Positions 1 through 51,767 of a stretch of 64,000 nt of DNA are shown here, in pieces; position 1 is the first letter of the stretch, and each line of letters opens with the position of its first letter. The stretch is from an uncultured Caulobacterales bacterium (GTDB lineage: Bacteria > Pseudomonadota > Alphaproteobacteria > Caulobacterales > Maricaulaceae): the NCBI GenBank assembly GCA_947503715.1, contig CANNER010000003.1, positions 310,001-374,000 of the forward strand, given 5' to 3'. The position numbers were made by a program, and so were the translations under genes. Under the pieces are notes generated by a model. That model ran no database searches and was not told where the DNA came from. It saw only the letters and a program-made list of their open reading frames with translations.

Positions 1-342
1 TTGCGGGCCTGAGGCGCCAGCGTTTTGCGCCATATTGAGATTCACGGTGACGGGCGCCCCGCCGCCTGTAATCGCGCCGGAAAGAGAGTTTGTCAGGGTC
101 CCGACAAGGCTCTCCAACGGTGCCGTGATGAGTTGATCGACGGCTAATCGCGCGAAGTCATTGGCGATAGAGTCTGCCAATGAATTAAATGAGAGTTCCC
201 CCGATCGCGCAGCCCGCTCGAGACTATCCGCAATGCGATCCCCCGCCTGTTCAAAGACATCGGCGAGACCATTCGCGGCGTCTGCCCCGGGCCCATTTGC
301 AAAATTATCCAGCGCGTTTGCCGCGTCATCATTCGGGTTCAT
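1..342 (-). CDS. GTA tail tape-measure protein (gp11-like), C-terminus beyond window
   Basis: Open frame of 114 codons that runs off the left edge, so only the N-terminus is present. The start at 342 is an ATG lying inside the end of the upstream chaperone gene (14-base overlap), the tight packing seen through this cluster. The product begins MNPNDDAANALDNF and contains an amphipathic segment (FEQAGDRIADSLERAARSG) followed by a Gly/Ser/Thr-rich stretch, which fits the short tape-measure protein of RcGTA-like clusters, where gp11 follows the tail assembly chaperones. The family sets tail length and crosses the tail lumen. Assignment rests mostly on position and N-terminal character; the rest of the protein and the distal tail genes are outside the window. 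Confidence 0.7.
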   Translation of the reverse strand, partial: MNPNDDAANALDNFANGPGADAANGLADVFEQAGDRIADSLERAARSGELSFNSLADSIANDFARLAVDQLITAPLESLVGTLTNSLSGAITGGGAPVTVNLNMAQNAGASGPQ

Positions 343-526
343 TTTCGTCTCCTGTGTCAGGATAAATATCGAGCAAATCAGCCAATGCCGTGCGGTCAAA
401 TCCGCTCGGTTTAGCGCCGTCCAAAAGGCTCAACCACTCCCGCACCGGCAGGGCCCAGAACTCTGTGGGCGCGAGTCCGAAACGACGAATGGCGATCTGT
501 TGCCAGCGTTCAAATGGCCAGCTCAT
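329..526 (-). CDS. GTA tail assembly chaperone, small (DUF2376 / TAC_6 type)
   Basis: 65 residues starting MSWPFERWQQIAIRRFGL, with the W-rich, 'PxEFWxLxxREW' pattern of the small phage tail assembly chaperone annotated as DUF2376 in alphaproteobacterial GTAs (the gene between gp10 and gp11 in RcGTA). The family helps the tape measure and tail tube protein assemble without entering the finished particle. It overlaps the upstream gp10-like gene by 4 bases and the tape-measure start by 14 bases, so translation is probably coupled. Identification is by sequence character and by exact position in the conserved GTA order. Confidence 0.8.
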   Translation of the reverse strand: MSWPFERWQQIAIRRFGLAPTEFWALPVREWLSLLDGAKPSGFDRTALADLLDIYPDTGDENEPE

Positions 527-813
527 CCGCCCAGCCCTTCAACGATGACGGCGGTGAGGTCGGGCAGGATCCGCCCCATATCCGAAGGGGAAATATCCCC
601 CGCCGGTCGGGGTGTGGCGATGGCTTTGAGAATAGGCTGCCACACCCCTGATCCCGTCTCGCGCCCGGCTTGACGGAGCCGGTGGGCCAGCGCGGCGGGC
701 GTGCCTGTATTGGTCAGCGCGGCGATCTCGGCCAGGGCCGAGAGGGTGAGCCGCAAGCGCGTCTCCACGCCGTCAATCATCACGATCCGGTCCCCTGGAC
801 GGAACCCGCTCAT
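523..813 (-). CDS. GTA gp10-like tail assembly chaperone (TAC_11)
   Basis: 96 residues. The N-terminal half (RIVMIDGVETRLRLTLSALAEI) and the length fit the GTA gp10 / Phage_TAC_11 family, found directly after the major tail protein in RcGTA-type clusters. The expected role is chaperoning tail tube and tape measure during assembly. The ATG at 813 overlaps the major tail stop by 4 bases, and the stop overlaps the next start by 4 bases. No unusual features. Confidence 0.82.
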   Translation of the reverse strand: MSGFRPGDRIVMIDGVETRLRLTLSALAEIAALTNTGTPAALAHRLRQAGRETGSGVWQPILKAIATPRPAGDISPSDMGRILPDLTAVIVEGLGG

Positions 814-1214
814 AGCGGTGCAAAGTCCGGGACGCCCGCACTGGACAGGCTCAATTCAAATTGCGCTTCGCCATTATAGCTGCCCGCATAGGACAGACCC
901 GTGACGAGGAAGGCGCCCGTAATCGTGCCGAAATCAGGGATGACGAATTGGCAATCCTGCGCAGCTTGTTCAAAGAATGCCGTGCGGATGAGCGCGTCAG
1001 AGCCCGCGTCGCGGAACACGCCCGTGCCGGAAATCTCCGCCGTGCGGATGCCCGCGCCGGGGAGCAATTCCTTCCACCCTTGAGACGCCGTATCCGTCAC
1101 ATCGACGGGCCGCGCGTTTAGGCGCAGGGTTTTGGTCCGTAATCCGGCGACGGTGGCGTATCCCGCACCGTCTTTAATCTTCAGCAGCATCTGGCTGCCC
1201 CGTTGCGCGCTCAT
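810..1214 (-). CDS. GTA major tail protein (gp9-like, TP901-1 family)
   Basis: 134 residues, close to the ~135 of RcGTA gp9. The sequence begins MSAQRGSQMLLKIKDGAGYA and has the beta-rich make-up and C-terminal 'GEAQFELSLSSAG' strand region of TP901-1-type tail tube proteins (compare 'Y.GE...F..SL.SSG' in the family). Subunits stack as hexameric rings to form the tail tube. It lies between the tail terminator and the chaperones with 4-base overlaps on both sides. The call is well supported by length, motif and order. Confidence 0.88.
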   Translation of the reverse strand: MSAQRGSQMLLKIKDGAGYATVAGLRTKTLRLNARPVDVTDTASQGWKELLPGAGIRTAEISGTGVFRDAGSDALIRTAFFEQAAQDCQFVIPDFGTITGAFLVTGLSYAGSYNGEAQFELSLSSAGVPDFAPL

Positions 1215-1633
1215 GGCGTTTCTCCTTGTGCGGTGAATGACACGCGCAAGACGCCGTGGCGGGTAAAGCCGTCCGGCGCGCGCAGAATGTCGGAATAAAT
1301 CGGATTGGCACTGCGCACGGCGATGTCGCCCGCAGCAGTCAATTTCTCTGCTGTGAGCGCCGCACTCACGCGGCGGATAAGGGTCAGAACCTCCGCCCGA
1401 CCCGCATAGCGCGACCAGACATGCAGCGTCATTTGATGGGCGGAAAGCGGCGTCTCGTCTGCGCCAATATCCTCGGACCGCATCGCGCCATAGGTGAGAT
1501 AGGGAAAGACGGGGTCTTCCGGCGCGGCGTCATATAGTCTTGGAGGTTCCCCAAAACTGTCCTGCACATGGAAATCATCGCGCAGCACGGCATGCACCGC
1601 TTTCGCCAGCGCTTCTGCATGATCAGTAATCAT
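1211..1633 (-). CDS. GTA tail terminator (gp8-like, DUF3168)
   Basis: 140 residues. Contains the 'PVFPYLTYG' segment typical of DUF3168 ('P.P.PYVTLG'), followed by 'TLHVWSRYAGRAEVLTLIRRVSAAL', a common DUF3168 pattern in which 'H..SR..G..E...L...V..AL' is conserved. In RcGTA the homologue (gp8) caps the tail tube and contacts the head-completion ring. It overlaps neighbours by 4 bases at each end. The assignment is firm from motif plus order. Confidence 0.88.
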   Translation of the reverse strand: MITDHAEALAKAVHAVLRDDFHVQDSFGEPPRLYDAAPEDPVFPYLTYGAMRSEDIGADETPLSAHQMTLHVWSRYAGRAEVLTLIRRVSAALTAEKLTAAGDIAVRSANPIYSDILRAPDGFTRHGVLRVSFTAQGETP

Positions 1634-1947
1634 TGTTTCTCCTCCTCACAGATCAGGTGCAGCCGCTCGCCCCGCGTATCCGGGTCACTCGCCGCGACGA
1701 CACGCAAGATGCGGTCGCCCCAGACGAGCCGCGCCCGTTCCGGAAAATGCGTTTGGTAGCGAATGGTGACGAGATAGGTCTGGGTGACAGCCAGCCGCCC
1801 ATTCTCGCGTGTTTCGGAAAGGGCGCGGGGTTGGATGGCCGCCCAGAGCCCGCGCTGAAACGCCCATGTTGTGATCGTCCCACCTAGATCGTCTCCCACC
1901 GTTTCCGGCGCATAAAGACCGACGCGTTTTCGCAATTGCCCGATCAT
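1630..1947 (-). CDS. GTA head closure / head-tail adaptor (gp7-like)
   Basis: 105 residues resembling the Phage_H_T_join (SPP1 gp16-like) family: N-terminal 'IGQLRKRVGLYAPE', then 'WAAIQPRALSETRENGRLA' and 'VTIRYQTHFPERARLVWGDRILRVVA', matching the family pattern 'R..V.....P....G......W...A.I..L...E.......' and 'V.IRYR..I.....V.....Y.I..I'. It should form the stopper ring closing the DNA-filled head before tail attachment. Overlaps both neighbours by 4 bases. Confidence 0.88.
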   Translation of the reverse strand: MIGQLRKRVGLYAPETVGDDLGGTITTWAFQRGLWAAIQPRALSETRENGRLAVTQTYLVTIRYQTHFPERARLVWGDRILRVVAASDPDTRGERLHLICEEEKQ

Positions 1948-2453
1948 AGCCGCACTCCCCGATAGGGCTGCAGCAACGCCCCGACCATGAGCGGCAGCGG
2001 CGGGATATCGCCCTCGCGATGTTCATAGAGATGCGCGACGAGGAGCAGGAGCGCCTGCCTGAGGGGTGTTGGAATATCAGACGGCTCCGTGCCGTAACCC
2101 GCCGTGAAGCCGATCTCGCAGACCGTGCCGTCCGGGGCATCGATGCGGAAACTGGCGGGGCGGGCTTTGAGATTGGCCGTATAGTCCACGCCCTCGCCGT
2201 CTACCCGCACAGCCTCCACAGAGGTCACAGGATAACGGTTGAGATAGACACACCCGCCACGCACGCGCTTGGTCAGGCGCTGCGGACGGGTAATGAGGCT
2301 CGTGCAGATCAACGGCTCGATCTGCCGCCCCGCCGAGTCGATGAGGTCCGTGATGAGCGCGTCTTCATCATCGTGATCAACGCGCAGAAAAGTTTTCGCC
2401 GCCTGTAGGGTCACGGGACCGGAGGGCGGCGGGGAGAGATCGGTAAAGGTCAT
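1944..2453 (-). CDS. GTA head-tail connector (gp6-like, Phage_gp6)
   Basis: 169 residues from the ATG at 2453, which starts MTFTDLSPPPSGPVTLQAAK; a longer frame upstream to 2546 crosses the terminator hairpin and has no family character, so it was not used. The motif 'TLQAAKTFLRVDHDDEDALI' is the hallmark of the gp6-like connector family ('L...K..LRID...DD..I...I..A'). The protein should sit under the portal as the first adaptor ring. It is the first gene after the capsid terminator (2475-2502), so its expression may depend on read-through. Confidence 0.88.
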   Translation of the reverse strand: MTFTDLSPPPSGPVTLQAAKTFLRVDHDDEDALITDLIDSAGRQIEPLICTSLITRPQRLTKRVRGGCVYLNRYPVTSVEAVRVDGEGVDYTANLKARPASFRIDAPDGTVCEIGFTAGYGTEPSDIPTPLRQALLLLVAHLYEHREGDIPPLPLMVGALLQPYRGVRL

Positions 2454-2474
2454 AAGGTCTCGCAAGGTGAAAAT

Positions 2475-2502
2475 GAAAAAGGCCCGCCGAATGGCGAGCC
2501 TT
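2475..2502 (-). terminator. Rho-independent terminator between GTA capsid and connector genes
   Basis: On the minus strand a 10-bp stem AAGGCTCGCC / GGCGGGCCTT with ATTC loop (one T-G wobble) is followed by TTTTT. It lies 46 bases after the capsid stop and 22 bases before the connector start. It should end most transcripts after the capsid gene, giving more capsid than connector mRNA, unless an anti-terminator acts. Confidence 0.8.
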
Positions 2503-2547
2503 GAATTTGGTTTATAATTTTCTCTCTCCGAGGAGAGGTGATGCACG

Positions 2548-3738
2548 TTAAGCCGCTTTCAAAACCTTGATCGCGTCAAAGTCCTGCACGCCGCCGCCGA
2601 CACGTTTCGTCGTGTAAAACAAGACGTAAGGCTTGGCGGAATACGGGTCGCGCAGGACGCGCACGCCCTGTCGATCGGCGATCAGGTATCCGCGACGGAA
2701 ATCCCCGAAGGCGGCACAGGCCCCACCGCCCGCAATGTCCGGCATATCTTCCATCTCGACGAGATTGTAGCCGAGCAATGTGGACGGCGTGCCGGCCACT
2801 TCCGACGGTCGCCAGATATAATTCCCTTCCGTATCCTTGAACTTCCGGACCTCGTTAATCGTCCGGCGGTTCATCACGAAGCTGCCATTCGTGCGGTAGC
2901 GGGAATTGGGCGCGTAGAGCAGGTTGAGCAGATCATCCGTTTCAAACACACCCGCTTCACCCGACAGGATCTCGCCGATTTCGCCAAAACTCTGCAAGCC
3001 ATCGGGACGGGAGGTGTAGGACAGGAAACCGCGCGGTTTATTCACGCCGTCGCCATTGACGAAGGCCGCCGTTTCCTGCGCAGCGAAGACGTCGCGGACC
3101 TCATCGGCCAGCCACGCATCGACATCGGCCACGCTGTCATCCAGCAGGGCCTGCGTCGCGGCGGGCATGGCGTAGAGCTCGCCCGCTGGGAAATCGAGCA
3201 ATTCGAGTTGCGGCGCGTCGGTTTCGACCCGTGCCTCGGTCTCGCCCGCCCATCCGGATTGCGCACCGGAGGCCGCCACAGGTTTGCGGAAGGTCGTCGC
3301 CCCAATCGTCCGCACCGTGGCAAGGCCACGCATGGGAGAGGTTTCGAACAATGCGGAAGCGATTCGGGACTCGGTCTCGACGGGCGCAATCAAGCCGCCC
3401 TCCCCGTCCACGCTGGACAGGGATTTGCCCTCAAGCGCGGAGGCATCCCCCGTGCGGATAAAACTGGCCCAGGCCGACTTGGCTTCCGTGCCAGAGGCCG
3501 GTGCGAAGCCGGGCCGTGCGCCGGAGAGAGTCAGGTTTTCGATACGCTTGGTCTGCGCATCCAGTGCCGTATTCAGGCGGTCGACCTTTTCGGAGAGCAG
3601 CGGATCCGGCGAGGATTTCGCTTCGATTTCCGCGAGGCGCGCATCATTGGCGTCGCGGAAGGCGGCGAAGGTGGTGGCGAAATCCGCTTGAGCTGTTTTT
3701 AGCTCAGGCGTCATTTTTGTTTGTAGTTCAGGGGTCAC
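2548..3738 (-). CDS. GTA major capsid protein (gp5-like, HK97 fold)
   Basis: 396 residues, close to RcGTA gp5 (~398). Residues 1-75 are charged and helical (SEKVDRLNTALDAQTKRIEN), the scaffold-like delta domain removed by the prohead protease in HK97-type capsids. The rest has family hallmarks: 'VETESRIASALFETSPMRGLA', 'EEQ.../ETDAPQLELLDFP', 'DVDAWLADEVRDVFAAQETAAFVNGDG', 'NKPRGFL', and C-terminal 'FGDFRRGYLIADRQGVRVLRDP'. The GTG start at 3738 overlaps the protease stop by 4 bases (GTGA). A terminator follows the gene. Confidence 0.93.
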   Translation of the reverse strand: MTPELQTKMTPELKTAQADFATTFAAFRDANDARLAEIEAKSSPDPLLSEKVDRLNTALDAQTKRIENLTLSGARPGFAPASGTEAKSAWASFIRTGDASALEGKSLSSVDGEGGLIAPVETESRIASALFETSPMRGLATVRTIGATTFRKPVAASGAQSGWAGETEARVETDAPQLELLDFPAGELYAMPAATQALLDDSVADVDAWLADEVRDVFAAQETAAFVNGDGVNKPRGFLSYTSRPDGLQSFGEIGEILSGEAGVFETDDLLNLLYAPNSRYRTNGSFVMNRRTINEVRKFKDTEGNYIWRPSEVAGTPSTLLGYNLVEMEDMPDIAGGGACAAFGDFRRGYLIADRQGVRVLRDPYSAKPYVLFYTTKRVGGGVQDFDAIKVLKAA

Positions 3739-4187
3739 GCAATTCTCCTATTGTGGTCTGCGTTGTCATTGAGAGTGTCGCCGATTTGAGTGATCCGCGC
3801 AGAGCGCAGCATCGGGAAGGCGACGACGGACACCTCCCAAAGGTCAAGGTCGAGCAGATTTCGCCCGACTGTTGTTTTACTGGACCGATTGGTCCTGTAT
3901 CCGATGGATAATCCGGTCACGGCATATTCCTGCACGAGGCGGATGGTCTGATCGGCCAGTTTCGCGCCGGACAGGATACGCCCCGAGACGAAGAGACCGT
4001 GACGGTCTTCGATCACACGGTCCCAGACGCCAATCGGTGTATCGGTCTTATGCCCGAACAGCATGGGCAGTTTTTCCATCCGCGCCAGCAGCGAGGCCGC
4101 AAATGCGCCCCGCGCCACACGGTCACCGGACAGGTCCACTTGCCCGAAAACACTGGCATAGCCGGAGATTTTAAGATCATTTATCAC
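3735..4187 (-). CDS. GTA prohead protease (gp4-like, U35 / HK97 protease)
   Basis: 150 residues with a GTG start at 4187 overlapping the preceding gene by 11 bases. Begins 'ISGYASVFGQVDLSGDRVARGAF', the usual N-terminus of HK97-type prohead proteases. Likely catalytic residues are His46 (PMLFGHKTD), Ser94 (VTGLSIGYR) and the acidic Glu118 in 'LWEVSVVAFPM'. It should cleave the capsid scaffold domain during maturation. Directly upstream of and overlapping the capsid gene, as in RcGTA. Confidence 0.9.
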   Translation of the reverse strand: MINDLKISGYASVFGQVDLSGDRVARGAFAASLLARMEKLPMLFGHKTDTPIGVWDRVIEDRHGLFVSGRILSGAKLADQTIRLVQEYAVTGLSIGYRTNRSSKTTVGRNLLDLDLWEVSVVAFPMLRSARITQIGDTLNDNADHNRRIA

Positions 4188-4449
4188 GGAGCAGCTCTCT
4201 TTCTATGCGGGACAGGCTCTTGGCCATTTCGCTCGTACGGCCTTCCAACCGGGCGAGACGTTCGGAAATATCCGCCGTTCCGGCATGTTGTTGTTCCAAC
4301 GCCGCCAAACGCGCCGCAGCAGAGCCGGCCCAGATCAGGCCAGCCCCCGTCTGCGCAAGAACTGTGAAAATCAATCCAATTGTGACCGTTCGGTCCAGTT
4401 GAAAAGCGCGGTAGACGGGCACGGGGTCGGGGATGGGATGAATATTCAT
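4177..4449 (-). CDS. Small membrane/coiled-coil protein between GTA portal and protease (gp3.5 position)
   Basis: 90 residues from the ATG at 4449, which overlaps the portal stop by 4 bases (ATGA); the longer frame to 4539 is an Arg/Gly-rich extension inside portal and was rejected. A hydrophobic segment (VTIGLIFTVLAQTGAGLIWAG) spans roughly residues 20-42, followed by a charged helical region with heptad spacing (RLARLEGRTSEMAKSLSRIE). RcGTA clusters have a small gene of this kind (g3.5) at the same place. Function is not established; a membrane-linked role in assembly or expression is only a guess. Confidence 0.65.
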   Translation of the reverse strand: MNIHPIPDPVPVYRAFQLDRTVTIGLIFTVLAQTGAGLIWAGSAAARLAALEQQHAGTADISERLARLEGRTSEMAKSLSRIERELLRDK

Positions 4450-5615
4450 CGCACGCCCTCCCCGCTTCCGGTCTCCAGCCCCGCGATCTCTCGCGCCTCT
4501 GCCTCGGTTACGAATGTCGCCTCTGACAGACGTTTCCACAGCACAGCGCGTTCTTCGGCCAGTGCAGGCACCCGGTCGAGGTCCGGCGCGATTGTCAGGT
4601 CATCACCAAAAAAGGCCGAGAGCCAGCCCTGCAACCCCGTCGCGGTCTTACTGACCAGTGGGATGATCGTCTGCCGCCAGAAGGCCTGGTTCGCCTCGCG
4701 GTAATTCGCGTATGTATTATCGCCCGGAATGCCGAGCAACATGGGCGGCACGCCAAAGGCCAGCGCGATATCGCGGGCGGCTTCGCGACGAAGTTCCGTG
4801 AAATCCATGTCGGACGGCGACAGGGCCAGCGTCTTCCAGTCCAGCCCGCCCTCCAGCACCATCGGGCGACCCGCTGCAGCAGGGCCGGAGAAATTGCTCT
4901 CCAACTCCTGTTTCAACCGCTCGAACTGATCATCCGTCAGGCGCTCACCGGATTTCGGCGCATGGATCAATGCCCCGCTCGGCCGCGCGGAATTATCCAG
5001 CAGCGCCTTGGCCCAGACCCCGCCGCGATTATGGAGTTCCACGGCAGAAGCCGCCGCTGCGAGGGGCGAGAGCCCGTGACATTCATCCGCCGGATTGAAC
5101 AGGCGCATATGGTGGAGAACGCAGCGCCCCGTAGCCGCATCGCGCGGGAAGCGACGTGTAATGCCGTCCCGCACCTGTTCCCACCCCGTCGCGCGACCCT
5201 GTGCGTCCGTTCCCATTTTCAGCGTGTCAGGCCGATGCGCGATCAGCGCGATAGGGTCGTCTGCACCAAGAACCGCCTCAAAGAACGCATTCCCGCCGAC
5301 TTGCAGGTAACCGTAAAACGCCTCGAACGTCTCGACCGCACTCATGCCCGGCAGGCCCCGGTTCAAAACCCGCGCCATATCCGCATCCGATGTGCGCAGC
5401 GGGACGGACGCCGCAGACTCCGCGATCAGGCGGACGCAACGATGGGCGACCGGATTGCGCGCAAACCCTTCGCGGCAAAGCGCGCCGTAATCACGGGCGG
5501 TGCCCGCATTGGCGGCGCGGAGTTGATGGGCAATGAGGGGTCTTGATTGAGACGGGCCAGCCTTACTTTCTGGCACGGCAAGAGGGTCGCCGGAGCGACG
5601 GAAAGATTTGAACAT
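4446..5615 (-). CDS. GTA portal protein (gp3-like, HK97 portal family)
   Basis: 389 residues, as in RcGTA gp3 (~396). Recognisable portal motifs include 'FARNPVAHRCVRLIAESAASVPL' (residues ~50-72), 'GNAFFEAVL', 'MRLFNPADECHGLSPLAAAASAVELH' and 'FGVPPMLLGIPGDNTYANYREANQAFWRQTIIPLV'. The dodecameric portal is the DNA entry vertex and the terminase docking site. In most RcGTA-type clusters it follows large terminase directly; here 1.8 kb with three extra genes lies between them. No obvious Shine-Dalgarno was seen before the ATG. Confidence 0.92.
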   Translation of the reverse strand: MFKSFRRSGDPLAVPESKAGPSQSRPLIAHQLRAANAGTARDYGALCREGFARNPVAHRCVRLIAESAASVPLRTSDADMARVLNRGLPGMSAVETFEAFYGYLQVGGNAFFEAVLGADDPIALIAHRPDTLKMGTDAQGRATGWEQVRDGITRRFPRDAATGRCVLHHMRLFNPADECHGLSPLAAAASAVELHNRGGVWAKALLDNSARPSGALIHAPKSGERLTDDQFERLKQELESNFSGPAAAGRPMVLEGGLDWKTLALSPSDMDFTELRREAARDIALAFGVPPMLLGIPGDNTYANYREANQAFWRQTIIPLVSKTATGLQGWLSAFFGDDLTIAPDLDRVPALAEERAVLWKRLSEATFVTEAEAREIAGLETGSGEGVR

Positions 5616-5786
5616 GTGGGGAGACCTTTAAAACAGTCGAAGACGGGAATTGCGTCGATGGGTGTTTTATAGGGCCGGTTGGGTTAGGTGCGGATCATTC
5701 TCTTGAAAATAGCATCAAGTAATTGAAATCATTGACGTCTCATAGCACCTTAAACGTGGACGTAGTTTTTAAGAGCAAGCTAAGGG

Positions 5787-6224
5787 CTACGCCACCTTAA
5801 ACAAAGACGGCGTTTTTGGACGTTTGCCCAGCAGCGAATCCGCGATCTTCATCTTATCCCGTAATTCGCGGCGTAGTGGCTCATCACCCTGCATAGAGGC
5901 CAGCGTAATCGCTGTGCGGTACGCCGTCTGTGCACGCTCAAAGGCGGGCTTGTCATTCTTTGCTTTGCCCAAGCGCATGAACATATCGCCGAGGGCGACC
6001 TGTACGAGGCAGATTTCAGCGGGTGTGTCTTCATACTCGTAATAGCGGCGCGTGGCGGAGAGCGCCTCTTCCGCCTGCGAGAGCGGGCCGAGATCATTGG
6101 TCTGCCCCGCGAGCTTCACCATCTGCGCGGCGAGTTGCGCATTCAGCAGGGCGAGCTTGGCATCCGTATTGGCCAGTTCCGCTTCCAGCGATTGTTTTTT
6201 CTTAGATTTGAATAATCCGAACAC
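5787..6224 (-). CDS. Unrecognised TPR-like helical protein inserted in GTA cluster
   Basis: 145 residues, GTG start. Begins MFGLFKSKKKQSLEAELANT and is helical throughout, with a tetratricopeptide-like segment ('CLVQVALGDMFMRLGKAKNDKPAFERAQTAYRTAITLASMQGD', about residues 73-115) in which the A/G/Y spacing resembles one to two TPR units. No signal peptide. I do not recognise a family. It is the last of three genes lying between terL and portal in the same orientation, so it may be co-transcribed with the GTA but has no known GTA role. Confidence 0.6.
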   Translation of the reverse strand: MFGLFKSKKKQSLEAELANTDAKLALLNAQLAAQMVKLAGQTNDLGPLSQAEEALSATRRYYEYEDTPAEICLVQVALGDMFMRLGKAKNDKPAFERAQTAYRTAITLASMQGDEPLRRELRDKMKIADSLLGKRPKTPSLFKVA

Positions 6225-6270
6225 GACTCAATTCCCCTAAACGCCTTGGCCTTACACAAGACCAACGTGG

Positions 6271-6786
6271 TTAAGAACGGTTTAATTCAGTCGCGATTGT
6301 GGCGGCAATAAGGTGAAAATCCTCGCCGACCCGCACGCGGCGCAGCGGGATGTTCGTCGCTGCGAAAAGCGCGGTCTTCACGCGGTCCGCCTCTGACGGA
6401 TTTTTCGGGTCATGCGACGCCCCGTCCAGTTCAATCGCGAGGACCGAACGTCCCGTGCTATCCGTAATCAGATAGTCCACATGACGCGATTTCACACGCC
6501 CACGCAATGTCCACCGCGCCTTTTCCGGCACGTTCCGTTTTACGCGGATAATATCCTCCAACCGGACTTTGCCATGCAGGTGATAGCCACGCGGCAAGCT
6601 CTGTAACAGCACCAGAAAGAACCCCCGCTCCGCCCCGTTCACCCAAAGCGATGGTGCCGCTTCGAATGCGTCCAGCGTACGGTCCGTGATCGGAGAGACA
6701 GCGGGCGGGGTGAACGGTTTTCGGCGCGTGCCGAGATAGAGGAGCAGCGCGACAATGGCGAGGGTTAGGAGAGCGAGGAGTTCCAT
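6271..6786 (-). CDS. DUF2726 protein with N-terminal membrane anchor
   Basis: 171 residues. An N-terminal hydrophobic helix (LLALLTLAIVALLLYLG, residues 3-19) is followed by a DUF2726-type domain: 'HVDYLITDSTGRSVLAIELDG' with D, E and downstream 'KTALFAATNIPLRRV' fits the pattern 'vDFvl.d....p..vIElDG.sH...r...D..K...l..agIpl.r', related to restriction-endonuclease-like folds (D-x(n)-E-x-D-G core). The substrate is unknown. It sits between terL and portal of the GTA cluster, away from any visible restriction-modification genes. Confidence 0.75.
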   Translation of the reverse strand: MELLALLTLAIVALLLYLGTRRKPFTPPAVSPITDRTLDAFEAAPSLWVNGAERGFFLVLLQSLPRGYHLHGKVRLEDIIRVKRNVPEKARWTLRGRVKSRHVDYLITDSTGRSVLAIELDGASHDPKNPSEADRVKTALFAATNIPLRRVRVGEDFHLIAATIATELNRS

Positions 6787-6839
6787 AGATACTCGGTGAC
6801 CTTATTAACCATAATTGAATGCCGCAATTCCAATTACGT

Positions 6840-7352
6840 TTAGGGCTTATAGCCTCTGGAAATATGGTGACGGCTTTCTAATTTGAAATTTAAGGTTCTT
6901 TCAGCCGTGTGACTGTAAAGGCATGAGAGATAAGCTGCACCGCCAAGAGAACCAAGGTAGTCTGATCTGTCAGATTTTGCCATGCAGTCAGTCTTATGAA
7001 ATTCTGACCATATCGCCTGAGAATTCTTCAGGCTAATAACGGCTTCACTTCCATATATTTGATCCACAAGTGAGATTAGGCGTTCATATTCAAAATCTAG
7101 TTTTGCCCCCCAAAGCTCATACCCCTTTTTTGAGCATCGTCTTATACCTTGAGAGGTTGAGTTTTCGGCTTCCGCCTCAATACATCTTTTAACAAAATTA
7201 CAACCGCCAAAGTCATTACTCGAATTAATTTTCTCATAGCAACCATTGAAGGCTTGTGTTTCGATATCTTCATTCCACCTCAGCTCTTCGGCAGAAACCT
7301 CGCCGGAAATAAAAATTAAAGATATTAATATTGGAAGAAAAGATTTTCGCAT
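6840..7352 (-). CDS. LprI/DUF1311-like secreted protein, AT-rich
   Basis: 170 residues with a signal peptide (SFLPILISLIFISGEVSA, cleavage near residue 21). The mature part has six cysteines and a DUF1311-like core ('YERLISLVDQIYGSEAVISLKNSQAIWSEFHKTDC...', compare 'L..aQ.aWi.yRdadC'), the family that includes the lysozyme inhibitor LprI. Exported and disulfide-bonded is inferred. The gene and its flanks (about 6790-7426) are visibly more AT-rich than the surrounding GTA genes and use more AAA/ATA/TTT-type codons, which suggests later acquisition. It lies directly downstream of terL. Confidence 0.75.
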   Translation of the reverse strand: MRKSFLPILISLIFISGEVSAEELRWNEDIETQAFNGCYEKINSSNDFGGCNFVKRCIEAEAENSTSQGIRRCSKKGYELWGAKLDFEYERLISLVDQIYGSEAVISLKNSQAIWSEFHKTDCMAKSDRSDYLGSLGGAAYLSCLYSHTAERTLNFKLESRHHISRGYKP

Positions 7353-7426
7353 GGAACGATTTCGTAAGTAAACACCCTTAAAAATTTGTGATTGAACTTT
7401 GATCTTTCTAGTGGGTAAAATTTAAT

Positions 7427-8725
7427 TCAAACCCACCGCATTCGCGCCACGGCCTGTTCCACCTTCTCCACCATCAACTCTCCCACCGCCCAGACCAGCG
7501 CGTCGGCGCGGTCGGGCGAATGGCGCAGGCTGTCCGTTCCCATGAGGCACATTTCCGCCTCCAAGGCATCAAAGCGCCCCGCGTGGCGGACTTTGCCGCG
7601 GCGATAGGCTTGGGCGACGGGTTCTGCGCGGCTGCGCTTGTTCCGGTTTGTATGGCGGGTCAGGACGGGGACATTGGGGTCGACCTGCGCGAGGCAAGCC
7701 TCGACCATTTCGCCGCCCTGATTGACCTCTGCAATAATCGCATCGGCGCGGTAATGGTGATAGAGCGCAACCGCGCGGTCGGCCCAATCGGCGGGCGCGG
7801 CGCGGTGAAAACTCGCATCCTCCAGCACATAGATCAGGTCGTCTGCGCGTCCCGCGACAATAATCCCGCAAGCATCCGCGCGGGGTCCGGAGGTCGTCGG
7901 CGGGTCAATCGCGATGACGATGCGGTCAAGCTCCGGCGCGGCTTCCACCCGTCGGTCGGAAATCCCCTGCAAGGTCCAGAGTGCGCCGGGCAGTTCAGAC
8001 AAGATCTCGCCGTCCAATTCCTGTTTGCCGAGCGGGCTGCCGCCGTAATTTTCCTCCATCAGGGCCGCAAAACCGGGCGAGAGATATTTCGCATTATCCG
8101 CCGTTTTGGACTGGGATATGTGTACGCCTTTTGTTGCGACGAGCTTGAGCAGAGACGGCGTGCGTTTCGGCGTCGTCGTGATGACGAGGCGCGGATCCTC
8201 GCCCAGTCGCAATCCCAATCGGAGATTAGACAGGGTATCTTCGGGATAGGTCCAGGCGCAGAACTCATCCGCCCAGGCCGCATCAAATTGCGCGCCGCGC
8301 AAACCGTCCGGATCTTCGGCGGAATAGACGTGACCCACCGCCCCGTTCGGCCATTCGAGCCGGTGACGCGAGGCAATGTAGCGCGGGCGTTCGCGCGGAT
8401 AACCGAGATTGAGCAATCCGCTCTCGCCCTCCAACATGACTTCTCGCGCTTCATTAAAACTCGGCGCGACGAGCGCGATATGTTTCGCCCCGCCCCGCAC
8501 CTGCGCCCGCACCCATTCCGCACCGGAGCGCGTTTTACCGGACCCCCGCCCGCCAAGAATGAGCCAGATATTCCACGGGGTTTCAGGGGCTTTCTGGTCG
8601 GGGCGCCCCAAAATTTTCCAGAAAATGAGGAGCCACCCTTTCAGGTGACCCTTAAGCATTTCAAAGAGCTGATCTTGTTTTTCATCCGTCAGCGACGATA
8701 CGGAATAGGCGTTTAAATTCTTCAT
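7427..8725 (-). CDS. GTA large terminase (gp2-like, TerL)
   Basis: 432 residues from the ATG at 8725, preceded by GAGGAGAG at good spacing; an upstream extension in the frame is Arg/Lys-rich and overlaps the small terminase, so it was not used. Walker A is GGRGSGKT (residues 58-65), Walker B is around AAWADE (149-154), and 'VITTTPKRTP' is the coupling motif. The C-terminal nuclease has acidic residues in 'VIAIDPPTT' (Asp274) and 'DRADALVWA'. It cuts and pumps host DNA into heads; in GTAs packaging is random headful. All key residues seem intact. Confidence 0.93.
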   Translation of the reverse strand: MKNLNAYSVSSLTDEKQDQLFEMLKGHLKGWLLIFWKILGRPDQKAPETPWNIWLILGGRGSGKTRSGAEWVRAQVRGGAKHIALVAPSFNEAREVMLEGESGLLNLGYPRERPRYIASRHRLEWPNGAVGHVYSAEDPDGLRGAQFDAAWADEFCAWTYPEDTLSNLRLGLRLGEDPRLVITTTPKRTPSLLKLVATKGVHISQSKTADNAKYLSPGFAALMEENYGGSPLGKQELDGEILSELPGALWTLQGISDRRVEAAPELDRIVIAIDPPTTSGPRADACGIIVAGRADDLIYVLEDASFHRAAPADWADRAVALYHHYRADAIIAEVNQGGEMVEACLAQVDPNVPVLTRHTNRNKRSRAEPVAQAYRRGKVRHAGRFDALEAEMCLMGTDSLRHSPDRADALVWAVGELMVEKVEQAVARMRWV

Positions 8726-8993
8726 AAAATCTCTCCTCATCTTCCGGACTGGGCGGGGGAAGGTCTTCCCACCGCGTGTATTTTTTGGCTGTTTCTTTGG
8801 CTTCCGCTTTCTCAATCTGCGCCTGCACATCATCCAAAGCTTTCAGCGTGATTGAGATGTCTTTTGGGTTCCGGTCGGGCGGGTCGACTTGGCTCTCGGT
8901 CTGCGTTGGTTGATTCATGGCCTCAAGGTCGGCAATTAAACCGGCCTCCGTTTGTCGTAGCGTGGCGAGAAGATTTTGGGTTTTATCTGTCAT
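8682..8993 (-). CDS. Probable GTA small terminase (gp1 position)
   Basis: 103 residues from the ATG at 8993 (MTDKTQNLLATLRQTE); a longer frame upstream crosses the intergenic gap and was rejected. The protein is short, highly charged and helical, with an acidic C-terminus (PPPSPEDEERFYEEFKRLFRI). RcGTA gp1 is the small terminase, of similar length and place, and overlaps terL likewise (44-base overlap here). I cannot see a clear DNA-binding motif; loss of specific pac recognition is typical of GTA TerS. The identity is mainly by position and character. Confidence 0.65.
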   Translation of the reverse strand: MTDKTQNLLATLRQTEAGLIADLEAMNQPTQTESQVDPPDRNPKDISITLKALDDVQAQIEKAEAKETAKKYTRWEDLPPPSPEDEERFYEEFKRLFRIVADG

Positions 8994-9040
8994 GCCCGAA
9001 ATGTAACCCCACCCGCCATAAGCGGGGATACGATTGTGTG

Positions 9041-9814
9041 TTAACGGGGATTGGCCGCGCCGCGCCCTGCCCCGACTTCCGTGCCGTAGAGCCGGACGAG
9101 CCGCGCGAGGCCGAGCTTGATGATCTGCTTGCCCGAACCGCTCGCCCATTTGTCCGTGCGTTCGACCTTATCCATATGTTCCGAGCGACAGCAGAGCGCG
9201 ATGACACCCGGGGCGAGGTCGGCACCGAGTATTTCGCGCGCCGTCCGCAACCGTGTCGAGGCCGTAATCCGCGAGAGCATCGCGCGCTCCGCCGCGCCGT
9301 TCCGGTCGCCGCCCTGCACGCCGGGATTGGTGAAATCCTGATGGCCCATACGTCCTTGGCCCGAGCGATGATAATCCCGCGCCAGCGCCCGTCCTGCCTC
9401 CAACTCAGCCGCGCTCAACCATTTCCCGCGCTCATGCCCTTTACGTCTGGCGAGGAGTTCTAGCGCGGAGCTTCGCACATTCACATTGGCGGGGCGAACC
9501 ACGCCGTCCGGCGTATAGATATCCTTGGATACGCGGTCTTCGTGTTGGCCGACCAGCCCGTCATCCGAGGTTTCCAAACGCTGTACGACCGAGTCGGCGA
9601 GCACATATCCGCGCGGTTCAGACGCGATCATGTCGCGACCCTGCAACCACGCAAAGCGCGCATTTTCCAGCCAGATGACGGGGCGTTTTCTTTTATCCCG
9701 ATGGGGATAGATGGGCCGGTCCATTCCCTGTGCACCTTCCGCAATCAGGCCGTCCACAGCGTAAATCTCCCGCACGAGGCGGTTCATGGCGAGGTTGTCA
9801 GAGGTATAGCTCAT
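9041..9814 (-). CDS. GafZ-like GTA regulator (DUF6456 protein)
   Basis: 257 residues. The C-terminal half has the DUF6456 pattern: 'RITASTRLRTAREILGADLAPGVIALCCRSEHMDKVERTDKWASGSGKQIIKLGLARLVRLYG' (hallmarks R..AA/RLR.A.e.lG..l...l...cC....l...E....w...sg..vlklaL..La..YG). In Caulobacter crescentus, GafZ is reported as an anti-terminator needed for GTA gene expression, and in Rhodobacter GafA the equivalent regions are fused in one protein. The start overlaps the stop of the DnaA-like gene by 4 bases, so the pair is coupled, and the gene ends 47 bases before the small terminase start. Function as GafZ is inferred from domain, pairing and place. Confidence 0.68.
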   Translation of the reverse strand: MSYTSDNLAMNRLVREIYAVDGLIAEGAQGMDRPIYPHRDKRKRPVIWLENARFAWLQGRDMIASEPRGYVLADSVVQRLETSDDGLVGQHEDRVSKDIYTPDGVVRPANVNVRSSALELLARRKGHERGKWLSAAELEAGRALARDYHRSGQGRMGHQDFTNPGVQGGDRNGAAERAMLSRITASTRLRTAREILGADLAPGVIALCCRSEHMDKVERTDKWASGSGKQIIKLGLARLVRLYGTEVGAGRGAANPR

Positions 9815-10152
9815 GCTGCCCCTCCGAAGAGGCTGGAACTCGTGAGGAGGAAATCCTCCACCTTGATGAGTTTGCGGTTAAAGACTTCGTCCTCCCGCGA
9901 ATCCTCGATAACTTTCAGGGCGTGAGTGACGGTTGAGCGGTCGCGGGAGAAGAGTTCCGCCGTCCGGCTAATCGTCATATCGAACACGGTTTGGAGCAGG
10001 TACATCGCGACCTGCCGCGAAAAGGCAATTTGTTTTGTCCCCTTCCGCCGAAGGTCAAGGGAGAGTTCGGGTGTGCCGAATTCCAGTGAAACCGCCGCCA
10101 CGGTCAGGCGGGCAAAAGCGGGATCATCGGGTCTGAATTTTTTGGTGCGCAT
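9811..10152 (-). CDS. GafY-like GTA activator (DnaA domain IV-like HTH)
   Basis: 113 residues. Residues 46-82 (RQVAMYLLQTVFDMT..RTAELF.RDRSTVTHA) copy the DnaA domain IV signature, including 'RDRSTVTHA' at 70-78 in place of DnaA 'RDHTTVLHA', but no AAA+ domain is present, so this is a stand-alone DNA-binding protein. GafA of Rhodobacter has a DnaA-like helix-turn-helix, and GafY is the matching short protein of Caulobacter, acting with IHF on GTA promoters. Here it is followed with a 4-base overlap by the DUF6456 gene and then the GTA genes. The alternative is an unrelated DnaA-like HTH regulator, which is common in Rhizobiales and Caulobacterales. Confidence 0.68.
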   Translation of the reverse strand: MRTKKFRPDDPAFARLTVAAVSLEFGTPELSLDLRRKGTKQIAFSRQVAMYLLQTVFDMTISRTAELFSRDRSTVTHALKVIEDSREDEVFNRKLIKVEDFLLTSSSLFGGAA

Positions 10153-10206
10153 AGGTCGGGTCCTCTTGTCTGAACGCCGAGTATACCCCAGTTCAGCAAT
10201 GTGAGG

Positions 10207-10238
10207 ATTATATTCCTATGAAAAATGCAGGAAGTCGA
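10207..10238 (-). promoter_or_regulatory. Candidate promoter of the gafYZ-like / GTA transcription unit
   Basis: A perfect TATAAT lies on the minus strand at 10212-10207, 54 bases before the start at 10152. The -35 region is weak (TCGACT at 10238-10233 with 20-bp spacing). Between it and the gene is a CTGAAC...GTTCAG inverted repeat (about 10178-10199), a possible operator. Nothing else in 10153-10283 looks coding. Confidence 0.35.
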
Positions 10239-10283
10239 GTCCCAATGTTCTTCTTCTGTTCACAACTTGGGATAAGCCTTTGA

Positions 10284-10802
10284 CTAGGCGTAAATTTTTT
10301 CCGGCTGCGGTTTGACCAGCGGAACGTCGGACATTTTTGCCAAATGATCATAACCGAGGATCATGTTTATATCGGTCCCGTTCTCAGAGAGCGGAAGGCG
10401 CACCCAGAACTGCGCCAGATGCGAGCCATTGGGCGTATTCGGACGGGTCACACCGACGAGGGGTTTACGGGTTTCTATGACTTGGTCGAGGACCTTGTGC
10501 CAATAGTCGACCCGACATCCGATGGGCAATTCGTCGACATGGCGGCCCTGAATTTCCTGGTCATAGAGGTTCCAAAACCCGGTCCCGGCGAGGCGGTGTT
10601 TGTAACGGGCCTGCCCGCCTTCGGTCGCGGCAGGAACACGTTCCATGATCGTCGTCATAGGCAGTTGTTGGTGGATTTCCTCGGGCAGGATATCTTCTCG
10701 GGAGGGGAATTTTCCCGCGCGGCATTTGCTGCGCCAATAGTCGTAGAATTTCTGTTGCTGCGGCAGGATAATCTGATGCCGTAATGCATTCCCCGATAAC
10801 AT
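10284..10802 (-). CDS. PAS_5-type single PAS domain protein
   Basis: 172 residues from the ATG at 10802, chosen because GGAGAGG sits at proper spacing; the TTG five codons upstream would overlap that site. The sequence fits the PAS_5 family of alphaproteobacteria: 'FYDYWRSKCRAGKFPSREDI.PEEI' then 'YKHRLAGTGFWNLYDQEIQGRHVDEL' and 'PLSENGTDINMILGY'. Such proteins are small cytoplasmic PAS domains, and MopJ of Caulobacter, which affects motility and development, is of this kind. The ligand is not predictable. It lies upstream of the gafYZ-like pair in the same orientation, separated by a 131-base gap with its own likely promoter. Confidence 0.8.
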   Translation of the reverse strand: MLSGNALRHQIILPQQQKFYDYWRSKCRAGKFPSREDILPEEIHQQLPMTTIMERVPAATEGGQARYKHRLAGTGFWNLYDQEIQGRHVDELPIGCRVDYWHKVLDQVIETRKPLVGVTRPNTPNGSHLAQFWVRLPLSENGTDINMILGYDHLAKMSDVPLVKPQPEKIYA

Positions 10803-11053
10803 ATTGTCCCTCTCCAACGGAATATCAGGCCCCGAACGGCCCGACAGTCTGAAATTTTTCTGGAGTGATGCGCCCGACGCATCACGTCCCCCTTGGACGA
10901 ATCTATGACAGGGGCGGAGTCATGGCATCAAGGTTTTGTTAACCATATTTCAGCCTCAAAACAGCCGAGAGGCGGCTTTTCCGAATCGGTTCCGAATCAG
11001 TTTGAGGAATTTAGGTTACAGGCGCAGTCTCGAACGTGAGCGCGCGAATCAGC

Positions 11054-11461
11054 TTAGGATTTGCCGAGGCCTGAACGTTTCGCCAGCGCCGAGCGACGCC
11101 GCGCATAATCCGGCGCGACCATGGGATAATCGCGCGGCAAACCCCATTTTTCGCGGTAAGCCTCTGGCGTTAGATTATATTTCACACGCAGGTGACGTTT
11201 CAGACTCTGGAACTCCAACCCGTCCTCGAGACAGACCAACGCATCATCGCGTAGGGAGTCCTCAATTGGCACGGCGGGGTCTGGCCGTGCCATGGCCATA
11301 TCCGGTCCGGCCTGCGCTTTCAGGAGCGCGGCATAAACCGTACCGATAAGCGTGGATATATCTTCTGGCTTTGTGGGATTGGCCCCGACATGCGCCCCGC
11401 CCAAATATGATGAGACGATTTGCGCCGTCAGGGCCAGGATATCCGAGTCCTTATCGGGCAA
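11054..11461 (-). CDS. mucR: MucR/Ros family transcriptional regulator
   Basis: 135 residues with a TTG start at 11461. The C-terminal half is the Ros/MucR zinc-finger region: 'CLEDGLEFQSLKRHL' with Cys77, Asp80 and His90, then 'YNLTPEAYREKWGLPRDYPMVAPDYARRRS', nearly diagnostic for MucR. A His at the fourth ligand position is not seen (Tyr95), as in several MucR relatives. The N-terminus (ILALTAQIVSSYL) is the oligomerisation region. MucR proteins are nucleoid-associated repressors of envelope, cell-cycle and virulence genes in alphaproteobacteria. The start overlaps the last antiporter gene by 11 bases, which is unusual and suggests co-transcription; no clear Shine-Dalgarno precedes the TTG. 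Confidence 0.88.
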   Translation of the reverse strand: MPDKDSDILALTAQIVSSYLGGAHVGANPTKPEDISTLIGTVYAALLKAQAGPDMAMARPDPAVPIEDSLRDDALVCLEDGLEFQSLKRHLRVKYNLTPEAYREKWGLPRDYPMVAPDYARRRSALAKRSGLGKS

Positions 11462-13199
11462 TATAGGCGACCATTAACACGATGAATAAGAGCCCGGCTG
11501 TCAGGACCGCCGCCAAACCGGACGGGGTCGCCTCTGACGCTGCACCGGCGGGAGAGAAGGTCTGATAGAACTTTCGGCCAGCCGTGCCGAGGAAGCGGTT
11601 GCGCTGCTGCCTTGTCACAGCCGAGAGGCGCGTCCACATCGCAGACGCCCATAGCGAGACGTTCAGTCCCATCCGGCGATAGAGCCAGTCTACGTCCAAG
11701 ACTTCCGCCCGTTGCGGCGCACGGTAGCGTTTCCACCGCAGGAAGAGGTTAAACGCAAACAGAACCCCAAAGAGCAGCTGTAGCTGAAACGCCACATGGT
11801 CGACCGTATAGGGCTTATAGGCATATTTCATCTCAAACGGCATGAGCGCGTAAAGCTGTGCATAGCCGCCAAAGGGCCAGGCGAGATAGACGCAGATAAA
11901 GGCGGCAATCCCCATAGCCAGATGCATATTCCACGGGGCCTCTTTGACCCGCCGCCCGCTATCGCGTCCGAAAAAGGCCGAATAGGGCACTTTGATCTCG
12001 GCAAAACCGACCATCCCCGCTGCGCCGAGCAGCAGGAGAACAAAGGGCACATAGTGATGCTCTTCAATCACCGCCGTTAGAATGAAAGCTTTGGTGATGA
12101 ATCCGGCAAAGAGCGGAGTCGCCGCCAATGTCATGGCTCCAACCAGTGCAAATCCAGTAGAAAAAGGCATGGACCGGAACAAGCCGCCCAGCTCTGACGC
12201 TTTCGCCGTCCCGACGCGGTGCATCACGGCCCCGACCGACATAAAGAGTAGGCCCTTGGCGAGTACATTGACGAAAACATGTCCGGCCACCCCGTTCAAC
12301 GCCATGGCCGAACCGACACCAATACCCGCCACCATAAAGCCGAGCTGGCTGTTAATACTGTAACTCAGGATGCGGCGGAGATCGTTTTCAACGATGGCAA
12401 AGGCAATCGGGAAGATCGCCATAATCGCGCCAACCCAGATGAGGATCCCCTCACCCGCGAAGCCACGCGCCAAGGCGTAGATCGCAAACTTCGTCGTGAA
12501 GCTCGCGAGGATAACCGTGCCGGTGATAGAGGCTTTCGGATAGGCATCCTGCATCCACATATGCAACATCGGGAAGCCGCATTTAATCCCCATCGCCAAT
12601 AGCATGAGCCACCCGCCCGGACTGTCCAGACCAATGGCGCCAAAGGTGAAATCACCACCATTGGCCTGCGCGTGAAGGATCGCCCCCGTCAGCAGCATAA
12701 CACCCGACAGGACTTGAATGGCGAGATAACGAATCCCTGCCGCGTAGGCCTGCTCTCCGCCCTTCCAAATCAGGAAGACGGAACTGATTGCGGTCAATTC
12801 CCACATGATAAACAGGGTAATCATATCACCCGCCAAGACGCCGGAAATCGCTGCACCTGTATAGATCAGGGCGGAACTATCCGTGATCCGGCATTTTTCG
12901 TGCAACCCGTAAATCCCGTTAATAATTCCGGCCAAACAGAACAGATAGGCCCAGATCAGCGACAGACTGTCCAAGCGAAATGTCGTTAACTCAACAGGAC
13001 CGAACTGTAACACACCACCTAGACGCGCTGCCTGTGTCGGGTCATGGAGCTGGAAAATCAGCACGCCCGCGATGAGGGGCACAGCAATGACGAAGGCTTT
13101 GCGCAGCGATCCAATTGGCAGGAGCGCGCAGATAAGTCCGGCGAGAATGACCCAGAAGCCCGGATTAATTTCAGCCAAAAGCGGGATTGCGTCGATCAT
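11451..13199 (-). CDS. Mrp-type proton-conducting antiporter-like subunit (third copy, ND2/4/5 family)
   Basis: 582 residues with about 14 membrane helices and a C-terminal amphipathic plus final TM extension (GLAAVLTAGLLFIVLMVAYIAR). Key proton-channel features are present: Glu in 'FIMWELTAISSVFLIW' (TM5), Lys in 'MGIKCGFPMLHMWMQDAYPKA' (TM7), Lys in 'ASFTTKFAIYALAR' (TM8) and Lys in 'AGFITKAFI' (TM12). It is the third such subunit in this operon and the last gene before mucR. The start overlaps the small membrane gene by 4 bases. Proteins of this type translocate cations or protons in Mrp/Mbh complexes; the ion here is not predictable. Confidence 0.88.
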   Translation of the reverse strand: MIDAIPLLAEINPGFWVILAGLICALLPIGSLRKAFVIAVPLIAGVLIFQLHDPTQAARLGGVLQFGPVELTTFRLDSLSLIWAYLFCLAGIINGIYGLHEKCRITDSSALIYTGAAISGVLAGDMITLFIMWELTAISSVFLIWKGGEQAYAAGIRYLAIQVLSGVMLLTGAILHAQANGGDFTFGAIGLDSPGGWLMLLAMGIKCGFPMLHMWMQDAYPKASITGTVILASFTTKFAIYALARGFAGEGILIWVGAIMAIFPIAFAIVENDLRRILSYSINSQLGFMVAGIGVGSAMALNGVAGHVFVNVLAKGLLFMSVGAVMHRVGTAKASELGGLFRSMPFSTGFALVGAMTLAATPLFAGFITKAFILTAVIEEHHYVPFVLLLLGAAGMVGFAEIKVPYSAFFGRDSGRRVKEAPWNMHLAMGIAAFICVYLAWPFGGYAQLYALMPFEMKYAYKPYTVDHVAFQLQLLFGVLFAFNLFLRWKRYRAPQRAEVLDVDWLYRRMGLNVSLWASAMWTRLSAVTRQQRNRFLGTAGRKFYQTFSPAGAASEATPSGLAAVLTAGLLFIVLMVAYIAR

Positions 13200-50090: not shown

Positions 50091-51320
<1,230 letters not shown>

Positions 51321-51381
51321 ACAAGACTTAACCCGCGTTCAGCTTGCGTTTAAGTTGGATTAACCATATCAAATATACAGG

Positions 51382-51403
51382 CCCGAGCAGCCGCTCGGGT
51401 TCT
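51382..51403 (+). terminator. Terminator after ccrM
   Basis: Stem CCCGAGC / GCTCGGG with AGCC loop followed by TTCTT, 61 bases past the ccrM stop. It also lies in the leader of the DUF2853 gene. Confidence 0.75.
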
Positions 51404-51425
51404 TCAGTTTTATGGGGAGACCACA

Positions 51426-51767
51426 ATGAGTAAACGTGACGATCTAATCGCGAAATATGCCGACGATATTAAGACAAAAATCGGTGAAACACCAAATATG
51501 GACCTGCTGACGAAAGTCACAATCGGTTGCGGGCCATCTATCTATAATAAGGACGCGTCCACAGTTTCCGGCTCCGACCAATCCGAACTCGACACTGTAA
51601 AGAAGAACTTTCTCATTAAAAAGCTCGGTTTATCAGAGAGCCAAGACCTTGACGGTGCAATCGCAGCCGTGATGGAGAAATACGGCAAGTCCAACCGCAG
51701 TAAATACCGCGCGGTTGTCTATTACCTGCTGACAAAGCATTTCGGCAAAGAGAGCCATTACGGCTAG
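51426..51767 (+). CDS. DUF2853 family protein
   Basis: 113 residues, cytoplasmic. The sequence 'MSKRDDLIAKYADDIKTKIGETPNMDLLTKVTIGCGPSIYNKDASTVSGSDQSELDTVKKNFLIKKLGL' and 'AIAAVMEKYGKSNRSKYRAVVYYLLTKHFGK' is typical of DUF2853, a small helical family frequent in alphaproteobacteria and of unknown function. RBS GGGGAGA precedes the ATG. Followed by two hairpins, the second a terminator. Confidence 0.9.
   Translation: MSKRDDLIAKYADDIKTKIGETPNMDLLTKVTIGCGPSIYNKDASTVSGSDQSELDTVKKNFLIKKLGLSESQDLDGAIAAVMEKYGKSNRSKYRAVVYYLLTKHFGKESHYG

Follow-up and report, generated by a model that had tools for sequence, protein, structure and literature searches.

We analysed a 64,000-nt window of the genome of an uncultured Caulobacterales bacterium (GCA_947503715.1, contig CANNER010000003.1), in which a pair of genes resembling the gene transfer agent (GTA) activators gafY and gafZ lies directly ahead of a GTA structural gene (gta) cluster. 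On the minus strand, gafY is followed by gafZ, by a candidate small terminase gene (terS) and then by the TerL, portal, protease, capsid and tail genes (Table 1). The first two genes share four bases (ATGA at 9811-9814), and 47 nt separate the gafZ stop codon (9041-9043) from the terS start codon (8993-8991). The coordinates of this co-directional arrangement of a 113-residue DnaA domain IV-like protein, a DUF6456 protein and terS, described in an earlier note on this DNA, all hold.

Detailed knowledge of GTA control comes from two species, each with an activator that lies away from the cluster. As the earlier note stated, gafA of Rhodobacter is found outside the RcGTA head-tail cluster (PMC9765227). 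In Caulobacter the gafYZ genes CCNA_01111/01112 are numbered far from the GTA genes CCNA_02861-02880 (PMC9632790). The pair is distant from the cluster in Caulobacter, whereas in the window the two are fused. Judged from the sequences, the fusion is real, specific and derived in one clade of marine alphaproteobacteria, and represents a variation on the GafYZ-GTA system.

Identity of the gafYZ pair and of its cluster

A profile search of the whole window genome returned one DUF6456 gene, which is gafZ. In 57 of 61 loci the DUF6456 gene is preceded by one for a GafY-type protein with a DnaA domain IV-type helix-turn-helix (HTH). Aligned with 14 DUF6456 proteins of relatives, the window GafZ is 65% identical to the nearest one (genome G409) and 19-38% identical to the others. 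Its predicted fold (AlphaFold pTM 0.49) led Foldseek to list sigma-28 and a sigma -35-binding domain with probabilities of 0.35-0.75, none at E ≤ 0.001. The Bac_DnaA_C and DUF6456 domains, the overlap of the pair and its genomic place support the assignment to the GafY/GafZ type that had been proposed earlier.

The cluster is RcGTA-like and apparently intact, with a head-tail part, distal tail, hub, NlpC and megatron genes. It continues beyond the window to G000:C3:304598 (L061:9598) with genes for an Rcc01695-family distal tail protein, a baseplate hub protein and an NlpC/P60 protein, followed by a last protein of 1216 aa that matches the NCBIfam equivalog GTA_megatron (1273.6 bits versus a cut-off of 800); the Rcc01695-family match is likewise over its cut-off. 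The terS candidate gave no family match in Pfam, NCBIfam or PHROGs.

The nearest described counterparts are the split gafY-gafZ pair of Caulobacter crescentus, which likewise has a RogA-type operator before gafY, a degenerate -35 element and an RcGTA-like cluster (CcGTA; PMC9632790, PMC11150451), and GafA of Rhodobacter capsulatus, which combines a DnaA-like N-terminal and a DUF6456 C-terminal domain and serves the same kind of cluster. GafA differs in being a single fused protein that binds the RNA polymerase omega subunit (PMC9638019, PMC9765227). In Hyphomicrobiales a split pair with a mucR or HTH gene upstream is found in mucR-gafY-gafZ-sufE loci, where sufE stands behind gafZ in the place taken by the GTA cluster in the window (PMC9638019).

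Table 1. Features of the gafYZ-gta locus (window coordinates)
Feature	Position	Strand	Description
MucR-type gene, 5' of gafY	11054..11461	-	Pfam ROS_MUCR 135.8 bits
PAS_5/MopJ-type gene, 5' of gafY	10284..10817	-	
RogA-type operator candidate	10205..10218	-	TAGGAATATAATCC (GGAA-N4-ATCC); near-match to Caulobacter RogA site
P1, putative gafYZ promoter	10180..10208	-	-35 ATCCTC (10208-10203), 17 nt, -10 TATACT (10185-10180)
gafY-like gene	9811..10152	-	113 aa, DnaA domain IV-type HTH; Pfam Bac_DnaA_C 44 bits (cut-off 31.5)
gafZ-like gene	9041..9814	-	257 aa; Pfam DUF6456 80.4 bits (cut-off 26.3)
P2, putative gta promoter between gafZ and terS	9000..9029	-	-35 ATCCCC (9029-9024), 18 nt, -10 TACATT (9005-9000), 6 nt to terS ATG
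terS, small terminase candidate	8682..8993	-	103 aa; called from position, size, TerL overlap
Large terminase TerL	7427..8833	-	Terminase_6N + Terminase_6C
Three extra genes between TerL and portal	5787..7352	-	LprI-like, DUF2726, 145-aa unknown
Portal	4446..5615	-	Phage_portal 234.6 bits
Prohead protease	3735-4187	-	Peptidase_S78, HK97 models
Major capsid	2548-3738	-	Phage_capsid, HK97 models
Head-tail connector, head completion, tail genes	1..2546	-	GTA cluster extends beyond window

Distribution and origin of the fusion

Direct fusion, defined as gafZ and cluster being next genes on the same strand, was found in all six sampled genomes of the window's genus (window included) and in Hellea; besides the window these are five other genus members and Hellea balneolensis DSM 19091 (G528; Maricaulales in the NCBI taxonomy). 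None of the other 22 family genomes with DUF6456 is directly fused, and in two of these (G419 and G523) TerL was not found. Genome G126, from another family, has the two close together, some 194 nt apart, with TTGACT-17-TATAAG in the gap (site read by eye). Among the best 80 IMG/VR contigs (L337-L416), one, L338, is fused.

In a tree of three host Mrp proteins, all six fused genomes that it contains fall on one side of a branch supported at 100/100, with unfused G453 next outside; the tree comprises the 25 of 29 candidate rows with at least two mrp genes, fused G409 being among the four dropped. This host-gene tree supports direct fusion as a state derived within one clade, and the simplest reading is a single fusion in a common ancestor of Hellea and the genus of the window. 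A TerL tree of 54 hand-chosen rows groups eight fused rows of the clade together with G453 at 100/99. It nests G453 inside the fused set (96/86), in conflict with the Mrp tree, and needs three state changes once G126 is counted. GTA gene exchange may explain the mismatch between the two trees.

A looser linkage of activator and cluster is far more widespread. Of 385 genomes sampled from the class 71 gave a DUF6456 match, as did 67 of 150 from the order, and TerL was searched in sets of 67 (66 with DUF6456, plus G458) and 68 genomes. Where gafZ and TerL share a contig (61 DUF6456 matches, including a few weak ones), 46 pairs lie within 35 kb, 38 of them with TerL downstream on the same strand. 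Long contigs (1 Mb or longer; lengths being available for 70 genomes) carry gafZ and TerL together in 25 genomes, and in 15 of these the two genes lie within 35 kb, where uniform placement would predict 0.8; fused members of the window's genus account for three of the 15, 14 have gafYZ upstream of gta on the same strand, and six families are represented. Three further genomes of this long-contig set have TerL on another contig and three are without it. These counts are to be read with genomes of one family as non-independent and the order as more densely sampled than the class; the linkage table holds 120 DUF6456 matches from 119 genomes, after exclusion of the weakest matches, the window's own genome and some TerL pieces. 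The best 80 loci of a TerL-centred named sample, whose flanks are often short, include five with gafZ no more than 10 kb away, two of which are Hellea and fused. The distance is 2.7 kb in Methylobacterium sp. J-088, with a sufE-like frame (read by eye) in between.

Linkage so widespread, if loose, suggests a long shared history of activator and cluster through much of GTA evolution. The cis arrangement singled out by the earlier note is real but less odd than it looked, as gafYZ lies within 35 kb upstream on the same strand in many Alphaproteobacteria. The accessible text of the papers searched (PMC9632790, PMC11150451, PMC9638019, PMC9765227, PMC6854486, PMC13236601, PMC11409702) holds no description of gafYZ adjoining a gta cluster, and no paper linking 'gene transfer agent' with Hellea was found, supplements (for the former search) and most subscription journals lying outside the coverage. 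As a separate observation, G101 (locus L141) and G384 (locus L190), two small genomes of distant families, each have a low-scoring DUF6456 protein (28 and 33 bits, respectively), encoded 2.5 and 1.3 kb ahead of a GTA-like TerL in the same orientation.

The surroundings of gafYZ are those of a host locus. Mrp antiporter genes lie 5' of gafYZ in the window, and, elsewhere in the family, in 17 of 21 unfused and five of six fused loci. The corresponding counts for MucR and PAS genes are three of the 21 (G386, G394, G453) and five of the six. Behind gafZ, the unfused loci carry sufE in 18 and prfC in 13 of 21 cases within the stretch covered (SufE matches of 162 bits, prfC matches of 611-680 bits), and neither gene was found there in any of the six fused loci. 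In the window genome prfC, gafZ and sufE are located on one contig at 95, 319 and 551 kb. Because the fusion is, on the host-gene tree, derived in one clade and gafYZ keeps its host neighbourhood, the arrangement is no leftover of an intact element.

It is conceivable, if rather unlikely, that the junction is a neutral rearrangement of no regulatory meaning and that GafYZ act in trans as in Caulobacter. Closeness and co-orientation of gafYZ and gta in many genomes would have allowed one rearrangement to join them, and the former neighbours sufE and prfC now lie some 230 kb off on either side. Conversely, the junction has been kept in deeply split genomes, whose gafZ proteins are 31-38% identical to that of the window (65% in G409), with gaps of at most 67 nt in all eight fused loci with a clear terS start, and it persists in G409 although the genes 5' of gafYZ are reshuffled there.

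In phage lambda the anti-terminator gene Q lies directly before the late promoter pR' and the late genes, and an activator or anti-terminator beside late genes is a phage layout. The window resembles lambda in having a putative anti-terminator gene directly ahead of a putative late promoter and late genes, and IMG/VR includes GTA-type clusters among its viral entries, so that the element might be taken for a prophage with its own late regulator instead of a domesticated GTA. This is highly improbable, although no search for an integrase was made, given that the GTA_megatron and Rcc01695-family matches exceed their cut-offs, that gafYZ sits in a conserved host neighbourhood, that host-type genes (Mrp, MucR, DnaJ, trypsin-like protease) flank the locus on both sides and that the window GafZ has no match at E ≤ 1e-3 in 50,697 phage records. 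The fusion moreover arose within the clade, which makes the arrangement derived and not ancestral, unlike that of lambda. A parallel between the binding sites of GafZ and lambda Q has been drawn, with no sequence relation between the two proteins reported (PMC11150451).

The TerL proteins of the best 80 IMG/VR contigs are 44-59% identical to the fused-clade query, and such 'viral' contigs may include many GTA clusters. Similarly, the 103-kb GenBank record MW462191.1 ('Bacteriophage sp.') carries a GTA-like TerL (47%; 50502-51725) and, 25 kb upstream on the same strand, a GafY-like match (76885-77073); the record may represent bacterial DNA that includes a GTA.

Operator-like and promoter-like sites

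Caulobacter RogA binds the gafYZ core-promoter region, which carries two GGAA-N4-TTCC repeats (PMC9632790). Upstream of the window gafY a single candidate operator is found, versus two in Caulobacter, and it is one base off the perfect repeat. The strict form, TAGGAANNNNATCC (TAGGAAN4ATCC), matched once in the 3.15-Mb window genome, at 10205-10218, versus three matches for the backward control pattern. Each of the 28 family loci examined (all but G508, the 29th family genome with DUF6456) has GGAA-N4-(A/T)TCC no more than 350 nt upstream of gafY, as do 37 of 57 loci overall, compared with 21 of 2882 control windows; outside the order the motif is missing 5' of gafY from most loci.

The candidate operator overlaps P1, which we infer to be the promoter of gafYZ. 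The P1 layout, ATCCNY followed by TANNNT at 17-18 nt, was recovered in 18 of 21 gafY upstream regions, and GGAA stands exactly 8 nt ahead of ATCC in 17 of those 18, so that the right half of the operator would double as the putative -35 element. A -35 element far from consensus (AATCAT) has also been described for the Caulobacter gta promoter, where GafY is thought to help (PMC11150451).

A second site of this kind, P2, occupies the gap before terS. The Caulobacter gta promoter depends on sequence reaching back to about -123, and translation begins at +251 (PMC11150451); the window gap is too short for a promoter of this type. The pattern ATCCNY-N17/18-TANNNT lies 35-36 nt ahead of the terS ATG in five of eight fused loci (window, G399, G409, G483 and Hellea MAG-133), leaving 6, 6, 6, 6 and 5 nt between the -10 element and the ATG; in G399 it falls partly within gafZ. 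Across the ATGs of all frames of at least 80 aa in seven fused loci (G493, whose terS start is not clear-cut, being set aside), it occurred at -37..-34 ahead of four of 1469, all four of them terS. Coding control blocks contained it in 0 of 206 cases and unfused upstream regions in 3 of 52, and the GGAA half-site is present in none of the five P2 sites. A matrix trained on P1 sites only recognized P2 in the window (p = 0.003), in G483 (0 of 300 shuffles), in L257 (p = 0.02) and in G409 (p = 0.047). In unfused genomes it scored 8 of 52 regions at p ≤ 0.05 versus about 2.6 expected, and P2-like sites are accordingly not general there.

Loss of the gta promoter through the fusion is a reading that the P2 pattern led us to abandon for the window and to retain as a rival. 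According to it there is one operon only: the separate gta promoter was lost, everything is transcribed from P1 and the P2 sequence is no promoter. A Caulobacter-type promoter would not fit outside gafZ in G399, G404 or G528, where the gaps measure 9, 12 and 23 nt, or in G493, where the terS start is overlapping or not clear-cut; P2 was not found in G404, G528, L338 and G493, and purine runs precede terS in G404 and G528. The near-invariant distance of P2 from the terS ATG in five of eight loci, and the restriction of the positioned pattern to terS in the ATG scan, make this explanation doubtful as a general one; it may hold for the loci without P2.

Outside the fused clade, about 660 nt before the TerL core of locus L240 (G057, a distant family), we noticed TAATCCCC-N17-TAAACT with a GGGG-ended spacer, which resembles P2 of G409 and hints at a shared gta promoter class.

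A proposed switch and the evidence on it

On balance we regard it as probable that the locus is the GafYZ switch of an RcGTA-like GTA, fused once to the front of its cluster, with P1 held by a RogA-like repressor, P1 and P2 fired by GafY, and anti-termination by GafZ. A RogA-like repressor on the operator overlapping the P1 -35 element would keep gafYZ silent. When repression lapses, GafY would assist RNA polymerase at the degenerate ATCC-type -35 elements of P1, in self-activation, and of P2, which, in the absence of the GGAA half-site, should be blind to RogA. P2 would start a leaderless terS transcript, transcripts from P1 could read straight through into gta, and GafZ would join the polymerase and carry it past terminators, presumably resulting in GTA production. 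In G404 and Hellea balneolensis, which are fused and without P2, terS would be read from P1 transcripts behind a Shine-Dalgarno-like purine run.

Parts of this scheme have experimental precedent in Caulobacter, where GafY has been shown to bind both PgafYZ and PgtaT and to act as an activator together with IHF and RpoD, and where GafZ anti-terminates with NusA, NusG and NusE (PMC11150451). Positive feedback, which the earlier note derived from the cis arrangement, does not need linkage, as gafYZ of Caulobacter is activated in trans by GafY together with IHF (PMC11150451).

A candidate for the repressor is encoded elsewhere in the window genome. Peptidase_S24 matches were obtained at three places: LexA (L254, TIGR00498 189.4 bits), a 99-aa frame and L255:1249-1872. 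The last encodes a protein of 208 aa (Peptidase_S24 85 bits, not LexA), with one match in each of 11 of 11 chosen relatives, and is no more than a candidate RogA-like repressor; Caulobacter RogA (CCNA_00080) has 213 aa and is without cleavage residues (PMC9632790).

Besides the TerL tree, several observations weigh against the proposed switch. The L255 protein appears to retain the serine and lysine said to be missing from RogA (read by eye, RogA being compared by description); because this pair is apparently kept, the repressor might be cleavable and might tie GTA induction to DNA damage. A sigma-70 consensus scan of 7000-10600 finds neither P1 nor P2 and yields two promoter-like sites versus 1.6 expected, and the terminator-like hairpin of the gap is one of four such sites versus 4.5 expected in the same stretch. 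The P2 pattern was picked after the gaps had been inspected, the fixed distance not being part of the pattern; with the P1-trained matrix G399 reaches p = 0.22, and the scores of G404, G528 and L338 do not stand out from those of shuffled sequences (0.70, 0.51, 0.27). No synonymous-site constraint was found at the 3' end of gafZ that would mark a promoter inside the gene. Translation of Caulobacter gtaT, which has its own promoter with a GafZ-binding palindrome between -35 and -10, starts at +251, the opposite of the leaderless terS predicted here (PMC11150451). That palindrome was not found at the putative gta promoter of the window (p = 0.24), which leaves the GafZ loading step without sequence support. 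Among 31 loci scored, the element was clear only in the Caulobacter-type genomes G496 and G422, with p = 0.01 in G493, 0.025 in G409 and 0.035 in G488. As the palindrome is known from Caulobacter alone, its absence does not exclude the window protein as GafZ.

More tentatively, as a possibility and not as the expected outcome, two claims can be combined: that a two-tier trans network has become a one-locus relay of tandem GafY promoters sharing an ATCC -35 element, with P1 repressible since its -35 is half of the RogA operator, P2 blind to RogA and terS leaderless, and that linkage of activator and gta is the usual alphaproteobacterial state. A clade with activator and cluster as one unit, including the cultured Hellea balneolensis, makes it possible to ask whether the RogA switch alone sets GTA output. 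The shared promoter signature, in turn, offers a way to find GafY targets; in Caulobacter motif prediction failed, and only one element was located, by manual mapping (PMC9632790, PMC11150451).

Rfam returned no match for window positions 1-12000. RNA folds of seven gaps gave z = -0.40 for the window and -2.0 to -2.6 for G409, G399 and G493, with no common structure. The three genes inserted between TerL and portal had no match in PADLOC. The DUF2726 and 145-aa genes among them also stand behind TerL in G409 and G528, and the 145-aa gene alone occurs in four other fused genomes.

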